64,000 bases of DNA from Chloroflexi bacterium TSY (GTDB lineage Bacteria; Chloroflexota; Anaerolineae; Caldilineales; Caldilineaceae), in assembly GCA_019217005.1 (NCBI GenBank), contig JAHBNG010000073.1, forward strand, positions 1 through 64,000, given 5' to 3'. A program made the translations under genes and the position numbers. The notes under the pieces were generated by a model, which searched no databases, was not told the origin of the DNA, and saw nothing but the letters and a program-made list of their open reading frames with translations. How positions within the stretch are numbered: the first letter of the stretch is position 1; each line of letters begins with the position of its first letter. This document shows, one piece after another, positions 1 to 6,918 of the stretch.

Positions 1-3000
1 GTGGTATGGAACGCCCTCTGGGCTAAAGTAACCATTCGCAGTATCGTGCAGTTCGCACCACATCTCGATGAAACGGTCGCGGTTCAAGTCACCGGATGGT
101 GAGGGAGGACAGTTTACCGCAACAGGTGTCCCGCTTGGAACCGGTGATGCCGTCGGACTTTCTGTCGGTCTGCTCGTTGCAGTTGGGGTATGTGTCGGAA
201 CAGCGGTTGGCGCGTCCGTAGGGGTATGTGTCGGAGCAAGTGTCTCTGTTGCAGTTGCAGTTGGGATACTGGTCGGTCTATCCGTTGGCGTGGGCGTGGG
301 ATTGTCAGTCGGAGGCGGCACGTTATTCACTGTACAGGCAACCCCATTGAGAGTAACGTTGACGGGAACATCGACACGTCCGCTGTGATTGCCAACAAAG
401 CCGAATTGGGCTTGGCGACCTCCATTGGCTCCGATGACGCCGTTCCAGTTGTTGGCAACGTTGCAGACTGCAACGCTGTTCCCCACCTGGTCAAAGACAG
501 CATTCCATCCGTGATTGATCTGCTCGCCATTGACAAACTCCCAGTCGAGACGATAGCCGCGGATGTCTTCGCTGCCGGTATTGGTGATGACGATATCGCT
601 GGCAAAGCCCTGATTCCATTGAGATTGAATGGTGTAGTCAACTGAACATGCGATGTTCGAACTACTGCTGACATCTTGCTGATCCGACTGGTTTGTGCCA
701 TTGCTGAGGTTGGGGAGATAGGTAACTGACCCCCCATTTTCCAATAGCGCACGGACGCGTGGCATACCGCAATCGGGAATGTATCCCGGCGGTGTGGCGG
801 TTGGCGTTGGAATGGGTGTCGTCGTAGTTGGCGCATTCGGCGATGTGGGTGTGGCCGTGGGAACATCTGGCGGCAACACTGTTGGCGTGGCGGTTGGGGT
901 CGTGGTCGGAACACCTGGCGGCAGCGACGTCGGAGTGGGTGTGGCCATCGGTGGCACATTGGTTGGTGGAACGTTAGTGGGCGTGCTGGTTGGGACGGGC
1001 GTCACACCAACGCCATCTGGCTCCTGGCCCCAGACAATCTGATTGCCATCATAGAGGACGATTTTGGGAGCAAAGGCTGGATTCTGCGGACTCGTACTCA
1101 GACCATCATAGGACCAATCGTTCCCATTGTTCCATATGCCACTGGTGGCAATACGAAACTGCACTTCCTTGCGATAGTCTTGCTGCCCACCCGGATAGAT
1201 TACCGTGCCGGAGCAGTCGATCTCGATATAGTAGATGTCGTCGGCGTATTGCATTGGAGCCGAAGGTGCGTTGTTGCATTGGTTGTAATTGGCACCCGTG
1301 GTTACGTCTGCGGCGCTGCCGCCGTCAAGCGTAAAGAAGTAGCGCAGTTTGGCGTTTTCCAACCCGCGGGCGGGCCATGCGGATTGATTTTTGAGGAGCG
1401 CTTTCACCTCCAAAAAGTTGCTGCCGGATGCATTCACGGCAGCCTCGACGAAAATTTCTGTGTCAGGCGTTTCGGCTGGAGGGAAGTCGTTCAGCGGCGT
1501 ACCACCATATTCCTGCACCATGCGCGCGACGGCACTGGTGAAACCGGCGTTGTAGTCAGTGGCGACCTCGTTCATGATGTAATCGCCACGATTGTCTGTG
1601 TAGTTATCGCTTCGATCTGGACCGCCCACCAACGCGCCATAGAGAATGTGGCGGCTCTCTGTGGGGTTCTGCAAGCTATCCAACCAGGTTCCGTGTGCCG
1701 TGCGATGGTGTGGGTTCTTTGGCGGATTGTTGCCAAAGCCAACGACGTAAGAACGGTTGTTGGGGTTGTTGCCCAGAGCATAGTTGATTTGATTGACGGC
1801 GAAGTCATGATAGCGGCTGACAAGCGCTGTATCACCGCCCGATGCGGCCAAATAGTCGCTGTAGACAAAAGCCACAAAGGCCGTGTTTGCGGCATACCGT
1901 AATACACCCCATGTATCGAGCCAAGCAAGACCGCCCGGGGTATATGATATCCGTTGGCCATTCGTGCCGACTGTCCAGTAATCGAGCCAACGTTGGGTAT
2001 CGAATTTGTACTCTTGTTCGCCAGTTTCTTTGGCCAACAGCACATAGGATCCGTAACTCTTGTCATCCCAGGCTTGGGTCCACCGATAAGACTTGGTGTT
2101 GCTTCCTTGCTCTGTATTGAGGTTGGCGTATTCAGCTTTGGCTTTGTTCAGATAGCCGTCGCCATAGCCCGCATTCTGGGCTTTTTTCGCCTTGTGCAGC
2201 CAGATTGCGCCCCAAACAATCTCATCACTGTAACCACTCCACGAGTTGTAGAACGCTGTGGCATCGGTGATGCAGTCTGAGTATTTTCCGCGGTGCTGAT
2301 CGGCAAAATCATACAGCTTCTCGGCTTTGGAGAGCAAGAGATCGGCATAGGCAGTATCGCTGCTCTGGCGGAAGATGATGGACGAGGCGGCCATTGCGGC
2401 GGCGGTTTCGCCCGCTAACTCAGAGCCGGGACAGGAGGTATCAATTTTATAGGCAGGTCGACTCATTTTGTGATGCAGAATCTCAGCCGATCCCCACCAT
2501 GAATGGTCTTGGCTACCGTTGCCCACTTGACCATAGAACTCGTAGTTGCCTGGTGAATCATTTGTAAAGGCTTTCAGGAAATAGTCGTTCACCCAACGCA
2601 GGTTCTGTTCGAGCTCATCAAGTTGCCCAACGCTGGCGTACGCGTCACGGTATTCGACCGCTCCCCAAGCAAGCATTGTGGTTGATGCGGCCATCGGAAA
2701 ACCGAACTTGACGTGATCGCCCGCATCGTACCAGCCGCCAGTCAAATCGAGACCCCGATCTGCACCATCTTCTAAGCTTGAGTCACCACGCCACGTCAAA
2801 CGGTTCCAGTCAGGAAGATCACCCGCTTGCTGTGCCTCGTAGAAGAGAATCGCCTTCTGGAGTACTTCCGCATAGTTGAAGGGGCCAGTTGGGTCCGGTG
2901 GGGTAAACGGTGTGGGTGTCGCAGTGGGAACACCAGGTGGTGTCGTCATCGTTGGTGTTGCCGTTGGTACAGATGTGTTTGGTGGCGATGTCGGTGTTGA

Positions 3001-3494
3001 AGGTGAGGTCGTGGGGGTTGATCTTGGCGCTTGCCCATTACAAGCCGCGCCATTCAACTCAAAATAGGTAGGATCTTCGTTACGCCCGTTGTAAGTGGCA
3101 CCAAAACCAAAGGTCAGAGACGCACCGGGAGCAATTGTTGGGTTCCAAGTTTCATTTTTGATCACAACATGCTGGCCCGTCTGTTGATAAGTCGAGCTCC
3201 AGGCACTGGTTACGGTCTGCTGGCCGGGAAAGTCCCAACTGACTGACCAACCATTCAGCGTTGCCGTCCCCTGGTTGGTGATCGTCACCTCCGCGTTAAA
3301 GCCAGCCCCCCAGTCTGTGCCAACCGTATAGTCCACCTGACAGGTCGATTCTGCTGGATCTTGCGTGGGCGCAGGTGTCGGTGACGGTTGTACGGGTGTG
3401 GGGTCCACGGTCACGTTGCTATAGTCAAACTCAACATCCATACAGCTATAGAAAGCTTCGGGGCTATCATTGCGTTGCCAGATGCTGTAGATAA
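1..3494 (-). pseudogene. Multimodular cellulase, 3' part: AA10 end, CBM2, GH9, CBM3c, CBM2, GH48 start (partial)
   Basis: One uninterrupted minus-strand frame enters from the IS end at 3494 and runs off the window at base 1. In order it encodes the last strand of an AA10 monooxygenase ([20 protein letters not shown]), a Thr/Pro linker, a CBM2 (about 3350-3060), a linker, and a GH9 endoglucanase (about 2885-1480). The GH9 has [18 protein letters not shown] and [17 protein letters not shown], so the catalytic Asp pair and Glu are kept. Next come a CBM3c (about 1450-1035; [17 protein letters not shown]), a TPTP linker, a second CBM2 (about 690-340), another linker and the first residues of GH48 ([20 protein letters not shown]). 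GH9-CBM3c is a processive endocellulase pairing and GH48 is a reducing-end exocellulase, so the protein would attack crystalline cellulose outside the cell. It is now cut from its signal peptide by the IS at 3495-6296. Confidence 0.9.
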
Positions 3495-3518
3495 GGCTAA
3501 ACCAAAAAAATAATTATA

Positions 3519-6232: not shown

Positions 6233-6296
6233 TTTTGCTCCTTTTGGAGAGCTAGTTTAACACCTTCTCGCGTATATTTTATTTTTTGGATTGGCC

Positions 6297-6918
6297 TAAT
6301 CTGCTTGCCCTCCTTCTCTAGGGGCACAGGACAGTCCATGAAATAACGGTCGCCATTCAGCTCAACACTCGTGATGTAGCAAAAGGGCTGCTCTTCCAAA
6401 TCCGACCATTTGAGTGGTTGCGTGTGGTCATGTCCGTCTTTGGTGATGTAGATTTCAAAGTAGCGAGTGGAGTGAGGGGCCGTGGCATGATAGACAAACT
6501 CGAATGTACCATCGGCTTCGGGTGCAACGATTTGCGTCGGCCAATCGTCACGGGCCAAGTTTAGACCGCGATGGCTTTCTTTGCCACCGCTACAGAGCTG
6601 CCCATCGGGGATGATCGCGCGGTGGCGGTCGTTGGCATCCATGCGGTTGACGCCATTCCAGTCGTAAAATTGTTGTGTTCCAGCTTCGGCAACTGCCGCC
6701 TTGCACGCATCAGATTGGGGATTATCTGGCCCCTCCAAAAAGCAATAATATTCCCGGCTCAACGGCACGCGGAAAGAACCGTGAGCTTGCAGCCGCTGGA
6801 CAATTAACATGGATCCAAGCACGAGCAGCAGCACACAGAAGATGGGAATACGAAACGTTCTGTATAATTGGCTCATGGTGGACCACGTTTGCCACAAAAG
6901 ATTGCATGTTCTTGTCAT
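6297..6918 (-). pseudogene. Multimodular cellulase, 5' part: signal peptide and AA10 lytic polysaccharide monooxygenase
   Basis: This is the first exon-like fragment of the gene that continues at 3494. The start chosen is ATG 6918, because AGGAG lies six bases upstream; codons further upstream lack this. A hydrophobic signal segment (about residues 22-42) ends at QA, so the mature protein begins HGSFRVPLSREY with the copper-binding N-terminal histidine typical of AA10. The second copper histidine is in ATAPHSTRYFEIYI. Cys pairs such as YYCFLEG and CKAAV are present. The frame enters the IS after PLEKEGKQI and stops there, so the surviving product would be a truncated, secreted LPMO lacking its last strand. 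AA10 enzymes oxidatively cleave cellulose or chitin; fusion to GH9 and GH48 points to cellulose. Confidence 0.88.

Follow-up and report, generated by a model that had tools for sequence, protein, structure and literature searches.

We analyzed a 64,000-nucleotide stretch of DNA from Chloroflexi bacterium TSY (positions 1 to 64,000 of contig JAHBNG010000073.1, assembly GCA_019217005.1; the whole stretch is called the window below). Its minus strand encodes, from 6918 to 1, a signal-peptide-like segment, AA10 (a lytic polysaccharide monooxygenase, LPMO), CBM2, GH9, CBM3c, CBM2 and the start of GH48 (its first 41-42 residues). This is a real combination of known modules that was met nowhere else in what we searched, and the gene that carries it here is broken and incomplete. 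We propose, with a probability of about 0.7, that before an insertion it was one gene for a secreted multimodular AA10-CBM2-GH9-CBM3c-CBM2-GH48 protein, the two halves of which have different histories. A first-pass annotation had read this order in a single frame interrupted by one insertion sequence. The order was confirmed by Pfam and profile matches, although GH48 is seen only as its start. The frame is the same on both sides of the insert and no residue is lost across it, although the gene is interrupted in this copy. The modules are readable across the insert, which consists of two nested elements rather than one.

Modules, reading frame and insert

The features of the gene are as follows, in the direction of reading.

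6784-6918, minus strand: start codon (ATG at 6918) and signal-peptide-like segment, which ends LQA ahead of the AA10 N-terminal His
6300-6783, minus strand: N-terminal part of AA10 (LPMO) with first and second His (HGS, APHSTRYF); Pfam LPMO_10 positions 1-163 of 183
6297-6299: target-site duplication TAA, one copy
3495-6296, minus strand: insert; outer, ISAzo13-like element (3495 to about 3519 and 5024-6296; ISAzo13 pieces), transposase in broken frames
3518-5023, minus strand: inner, nested element, transposase in broken frames, family uncertain (IS701-like at best; weak NCBIfam matches)
3492-3494: target-site duplication TAA, other copy
3427-3492, minus strand: C-terminal part of AA10, last 22 residues; LPMO_10 positions 163-183 of 183, 21 bits against a Pfam cut-off of 23
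3040-3342, minus strand: first CBM2; Pfam CBM_2, 54-154 of the translated frame
1531-2874, minus strand: GH9; Pfam Glyco_hydro_9, E 1.8e-150, 502.6 bits
1018-1449, minus strand: CBM3c; Pfam CBM_3 and a match to E4 running on from GH9 (the letter c is given from the resemblance to E4)
334-648, minus strand: second CBM2; two Pfam CBM_2 stretches, borders from the BLAST match, 71% identical to the CBM2 of protein P0002
1-126, minus strand: GH48 start, cut off at window base 1; 49.6 bits against a GH48 profile built here

The sequence AGGAG lies six bases 5' of the ATG, and the signal-peptide-like segment was identified by eye from the translation. The codon of the AA10 N-terminal His occupies 6783-6781; this His and the second one are presumably the copper ligands. 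The LQA-HGS and APHSTRYF contexts are the same in eight of the nine relatives compared (P0217 fails the expressions). The LPMO_10 profile is spanned over its full length in two pieces, the shorter of which falls below the Pfam cut-off when taken alone. The GH9 motifs are present in the window sequence, and GH9-CBM3c gave a continuous match to the solved T. fusca endo/exocellulase E4 (residues 187-808 of P0001, the database copy of the window protein; E 3e-251).

AA10 is split near its C-terminus by an insert of 2802 bp, the ends of which are inverted repeats (31 nt, 81% complementary including the duplication; 21 of 31 ungapped for the element ends alone). A second copy of the outer element, without the inner part and also flanked by TAA on both sides, was found at 56998-58296. 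The two ISAzo13-like copies are 99.06% identical over 5024-6296 and 100% identical over the first 25 bases of the insert; they differ by five small indels (six aligned blocks), and the transposase frames are broken in both. The inner element has a second copy at 45435-46939 (95% identical), also with broken transposase frames; its transposase has no Pfam match, and its best NCBIfam matches, NF041680 (E 1e-4) and IS701 (E 6e-4), are far under the cut-offs. As read from the sequence, an ISAzo13-like element jumped into the AA10 gene and the second element is nested inside it. The near identity of the ISAzo13-like copies suggests that this insertion is probably recent. The two AA10 pieces were compared separately with ten relatives. 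Against P0005 the first piece aligns to residue 188 and the second from residue 191; the gap is accounted for by the last residue of the first piece and the split codon, so that nothing is lost. Since no AA10 residue is missing across the split, we infer that one gene existed here before the insertion.

An assembly chimera, in which an AA10 gene and a GH9-GH48 gene were falsely joined through repeated insertion sequences, would give a similar layout. Both elements have further copies in the window, and repeats are the usual site of false joins in short-read assemblies. However, the flanks carry matching TAA and the AA10 reading resumes codon for codon across the insert. Moreover, the sequence after the insert starts with 22 AA10 residues in frame with CBM2-GH9, and therefore the AA10-CBM2-GH9 fusion does not depend on the join. 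A false join appears unlikely from these sequence features, and we give the chimera next to no weight.

The first-pass annotation had counted a GH48 exoglucanase among the modules. The start of a GH48 is real: the profile match covers 42 residues, and the fragment is 73% identical to the full-length GH48 of P0002 (41 aa), 79% to that of P0004 (33 aa) and 81% to that of P0003 (32 aa). These residues are all that is visible of it, and the Pfam scan of the window protein reported no GH48 at E 0.001. The minus-strand frame 3441-1 is open over 1147 codons, up to the last base, and P0001 (1147 aa, encoded on a 71,369-bp contig) stops at the same residue. Because 3441-1 holds exactly the 1147 codons of P0001, the contig probably ends at window base 1, which would leave no sequence for a leftward extension, and the original gene would have encoded a full GH48. 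The GH48 could instead be a stump, the protein having been AA10-CBM2-GH9-CBM3c-CBM2 plus a GH48 remnant, like the AA10-GH9 proteins of Caldilineaceae. GH48-less proteins with that order do exist (P0005, P0011) and the visible GH48 is limited to 41-42 residues, but these residues are 73-81% identical to full-length GH48s in a frame that runs open up to the last base, a full GH48 is present in the sister protein P0002, and the cut coincides with the probable contig end. We therefore consider a stump improbable and keep the full GH48 in the proposed protein.

Occurrence of the combination and origin of its two halves

The pair of AA10 and GH48 on one protein, which the first-pass annotation did not know as a described architecture, was not found in any list or genome searched. 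PF03067 and PF02011 occur together in none of 120 proteins listed of 2424 (lengths about 642-2042), in none of 120 listed of 1380 (lengths 880-2800) and in none of the 37 of 37 matches to an AA10-CBM2 query (lengths 801-2550). The protein search depends on shared words, and the genome sets were drawn from larger groups and partly overlap. With profiles built here, AA10 and GH48 were found together in 0 of 232 proteins and in no frame of at least 150 aa in 67 loci, while AA10 with GH9 is found in 11 of these proteins and GH9 with GH48 in 78, counting P0001 with its fragment. Among 400 genomes of the phylum of G004 (the Ardenticatenaceae record with locus L004), GH48 is present in 24 (24 places) and AA10 in 13 (15 places). 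Eleven of the 13 AA10 genomes also have GH48 (hypergeometric p 2e-13, kinship ignored), and in these 11 no open frame is common to the two. In 396 genomes of the phylum of the Cellulomonas locus L008, GH48 was found in 10 (11 places, frames up to 1099 aa), and no AA10 frame lies in these 11 GH48 loci or in two other loci. In 396 genomes of the class of G004, AA10 was found in 7 (11 places), with no AA10 frame above 889 aa. A search of the open-licence PubMed Central literature, as far as its text was available, found no description of AA10 and GH48 on one protein, and the available portions of PMC11131199 and PMC12508864 contain nothing on this architecture.

Parts of the combination are already public, as proteins that fuse AA10 to GH9, proteins that fuse GH9 to GH48, and one protein with AA10, GH18 and GH9. 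The AA10-CBM2-GH9-CBM3c order, in some cases followed by another CBM2, is found in P0005, P0011 and P0019, and in P0014, P0015 and P0018 by listed domains and sequence only. GH9 with GH48 occurs in P0002, P0003, P0004, P0017, P0020, P0021 and P0041 among the listed proteins. ManA, an AA10 protein with a GH1 module, is described in the accessible part of PMC6771041, so other LPMO-hydrolase proteins have already been published.

The GH9 tree was built from 60 rows hand-chosen from 228 GH9 frames, with long rows flagged, and was repeated with 26 rows from which the long ones had been removed. The window GH9 pairs with that of P0002 (support 100/99; 88% identical), and the pair is kept in the 26-row tree. 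The AA10-GH9 proteins P0005, P0011, P0014, P0015, P0018, P0019 and P0194 form a clade of their own (100/99). The AA10 tree contains 43 rows of 46 AA10 frames (excluding identical rows and matches that scored below 60 bits; P0016 absent), and 39 rows were used for the constraint test, leaving out the long rows P0220, P0222, L061 and L063. GH labels of the rows come from domain lists, except that L025, L059 and L063 were labelled by eye, and PF01270 was taken to be GH8. P0033 and P0193, whose AA10 is far off, were not counted in the AA10-GH9 set. The window AA10 belongs to a clade of 22 rows (98/91) in which AA10 is fused to GH18, GH8 or GH9. The seven AA10-GH9 proteins form a clade (97/89) that does not include the window AA10, and the five rows closest to the latter are AA10-GH18.

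The AA10 tail, the linker and the first CBM2 match AA10-CBM2 proteins best: the top BLAST match of the first CBM2 is the CBM2 of P0207 (AA10-CBM2-GH18, 53%), and that of the second CBM2 is the CBM2 of P0002 (71%). The two trees and the CBM2 matches thus indicate that the two halves of the gene have different histories. Three other arrangements were rejected by the approximately unbiased (AU) test. Placing the window GH9 with the seven AA10-GH9 proteins costs 142 log units (AU p 0.0014, 26 rows). Placing the window AA10 with these seven proteins (AU p 0.0024, 39 rows) or with the GH18 fusions alone (p 0.0024) was likewise rejected. The AA10 and the GH9 tests both reject the idea that AA10-CBM2-GH9 was inherited in one block from the Caldilineaceae form. 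The AA10 join may have been made on the branch of the window, or an AA10 may have been lost from P0002; gain and loss are not distinguishable from the trees.

Three proteins deserve mention in their own right. P0194, a Caldilineaceae protein of 2065 aa from a metagenome-assembled genome (MAG), has chitin- and cellulose-type catalytic modules on one chain. In P0033 and P0193, GH9 and a cohesin-like domain come first and AA10 lies inside (residues about 1192-1370 and 1214-1392, respectively), immediately behind a hydrophobic stretch with Ala-His-Gly at its end, as though the His were released by internal cleavage.

Regulation, substrate and weighing of the proposal

Two features lie upstream of the gene.

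7138-7151: CebR/CelR-like operator, which matches TGGGAGCGCTCCCA at 13 of 14 bases and lies 219 bp ahead of the start codon
7334-8434, minus strand: LacI/GalR-family regulator gene, immediately upstream in the same orientation; Pfam LacI and Peripla_BP_3

According to the available text of PMC4898821, TGGGAGCGCTCCCA is the CebR site of Streptomyces. The window thus has a CebR/CelR-type pattern, a 13/14-base operator upstream of a cellulase gene and beside a LacI-type gene. In the permuted half-site control, in which the real site was one of 210 palindromes, only one palindrome matches the window with no more than one mismatch; the real site has such a match. Perfect sites are present in 11 of 85 loci: L001, L002, L004 and L068-L075, the latter from the draw of the Cellulomonas phylum. 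L001, L002 and L004, from Chloroflexota relatives, are the three GH9-GH48 loci with upstream flanks, and the operator is perfect in all of them (L001 9839-9852, L002 9792-9805, L004 9783-9796), 70, 75 and 81 bp before the GH9-GH48 start. The loci L003 and L005 (GH9 with no visible GH48; L005 is a short contig) have no site with at most two mismatches. The GH48 loci from the 400-genome scan have about 1.5 kb of flank, too short to judge longer genes. From its position, the gene at 7334-8434 is the candidate repressor, its relation being at the level of the LacI family; it has no NCBIfam equivalog above cut-off. As the operator is common to the Chloroflexota relatives, CebR-type control of cellulases may extend beyond actinobacteria, and the sites suggest that it is common to both groups.

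The first-pass annotation had assumed an oxidative attack on cellulose; the closest solved AA10s and the closest fusions indicate chitin just as much. Among solved AA10 chains the best matches are CbpD (235 and 233 bits) and 6if7 (159 bits), all three named chitin-binding, followed by 7zjb (a putative secreted cellulose-binding protein, 136 bits), 5fjq (98 bits) and 4oy7 (64 bits). In the accessible part of PMC6771041, chitin-active AA10s are given the L2 motif Y(W)EPQSVE and cellulose-active ones Y(W)NWFGVL. By composition the window motif, YDWNGVN, is closer to the cellulose type, although identical letters stand at this place in the aligned CbpD, which is chitin-binding. It is possible, if in our view somewhat doubtful, that this AA10 is a chitin oxidase and the protein a mixed chitin-and-cellulose degrader, a reading compatible with the proposed gene. 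The three chitin-binding chains, the five nearest AA10-tree rows (all AA10-GH18) and P0194, which joins AA10, GH18 and GH9, speak for it, but the L2 motif leans to the cellulose type, the remaining catalytic modules of the protein are cellulases, and the operator belongs to the cellobiose type.

Several observations weigh against the proposed protein and its control. The gene is most likely dead at present because a stop at 6229, within the insert, ends the AA10 frame, so that AA10 would lack its C-terminal end, and the frame with GH9 and GH48 begins without a signal peptide. GH48 is seen over only 41-42 residues, and the proteins and genomes searched, with metagenome and viral contigs outside the search, yielded no intact copy of the entire gene. 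Separate AA10 and GH9 genes in relatives, which the first-pass annotation had named as evidence against its reading, were seen in part: in L004 (genome G004, one of the 11 with both AA10 and GH48) an AA10-CBM5-CBM2-CBM2 frame begins 113 bp past the end of the GH9-GH48 frame, and the protein of the nearest relative, P0002, has no AA10. The end branch of the window AA10 is 0.39 against a median of 0.12, which may reflect relaxed constraint before the insertion. After P0002 the next relatives in the GH9 tree are P0033, P0193 and P0013, two of which carry an AA10 of another clade, C-terminal to GH9, which does not suit a simple story. The AA10 evidence, as stated, points as much to chitin. The operator is farther from the start codon (219 bp) than in the relatives. 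Finally, matches with at most three mismatches number 5 in the window against a shuffle mean of 2.82, and 16 of 100 shuffles reach 5; this count is no higher than in shuffles, and therefore only the close match counts.

Taking these points together with the evidence above, we still favour the proposed gene. An AA10-CBM2 unit, the kind found elsewhere in fusion with GH18, GH8 or GH9, would have been placed ahead of a CelA-like GH9-CBM3c-CBM2-GH48 core that would stand under a CebR/CelR-type repressor, with cello-oligosaccharides lifting the repression. The protein would be secreted, and signal peptidase would expose the His at the AA10 N-terminus, which would enter the copper site. The CBM2s would anchor the protein on crystalline polysaccharide, where, in synergy, AA10 would make oxidised breaks, GH9-CBM3c would cut processively inside chains and GH48 would work from chain ends. 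On balance we lean, by a modest degree, to the wider view that this was a natural one-chain oxidative, endo and exo cellulose machine of a Chloroflexota-like bacterium, with its own AA10-CBM2 join to a CelA-like enzyme and CebR-type control as in the GH9-GH48 genes of relatives.

The rest of the window and comparison with known systems

The G+C content of the window is 41-56% per 2 kb, no tRNA was found in the 64 kb, and the five best named matching loci are Chloroflexota MAGs. Three BNR-repeat proteins and two sulfatases (8585-10180, 12281-13333, 14474-15841, 42942-44228 and 47723-49228), with ABC transporter genes between, perhaps serve sulfated or sialylated glycans. A carbohydrate kinase of the FGGY type runs over two overlapping frames at 34021-35731 (a frameshift or a sequencing error). 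About 3 kb at 35964-38930 match their own reverse complement at 68% and contain an IS110-type transposase frame (36066-37169). A 157-bp repeat occurs at 56374-56530 and 60379-60535 (100% identical), with an 81% copy at 47094-47248. In the loci of relatives, a subtilase with two CBM3 stretches adjoins the GH9 gene (L003 6172-8388, L004 7345-9504).

According to the excerpt of a 2023 review, a single LPMO-hydrolase fusion had been characterised up to then, and it outperformed every mix of its separately made domains (PMC10154629). A natural AA10 with both CelA-like halves would test whether an LPMO tethered to an endo/exo pair pays on crystalline cellulose, and the relatives (AA10-GH9, AA10-GH18-GH9, GH9-GH48 and GH9-GH48 beside a separate AA10 gene) form a natural series for such a tether test.

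Among the relatives, P0002 (GH9-CBM3c-CBM2-GH48, 1600 aa) is 77% identical to the window protein over 969 aligned residues with the same order from GH9 to GH48, but it has a hydrophobic N-terminus directly before GH9 and lacks AA10 and the first CBM2. The Caldilineaceae-type proteins P0005 and P0011 share the AA10-CBM2-GH9-CBM3c-CBM2 order, whereas they have no GH48 and their AA10 and GH9 belong to other clades (AU p 0.0024 and 0.0014). P0194 (Caldilineaceae, AA10-CBM2-GH18-GH9-CBM3c-CBM2-cohesin) resembles the window protein in its three catalytic modules and N-terminal AA10; its third catalytic module is GH18 rather than GH48. Among characterised enzymes, Jd1381 (AA10-CBM5-GH18), as given in the excerpt of PMC10154629, also joins an LPMO and a hydrolase on one chain, interrupted in the window copy, but its partner is a chitinase and its only hydrolase. 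GH9-CBM3-GH48 fusions such as CelA are known, as the first-pass annotation had said. In the available text of PMC6892212, Caldicellulosiruptor bescii CelA is GH9-CBM3c-CBM3b-CBM3b-GH48; it shares GH9-CBM3c and a C-terminal GH48 with the window protein, in which only the start of GH48 is seen, while in the window protein CBM2 replaces CBM3b and an AA10-CBM2 unit is added.

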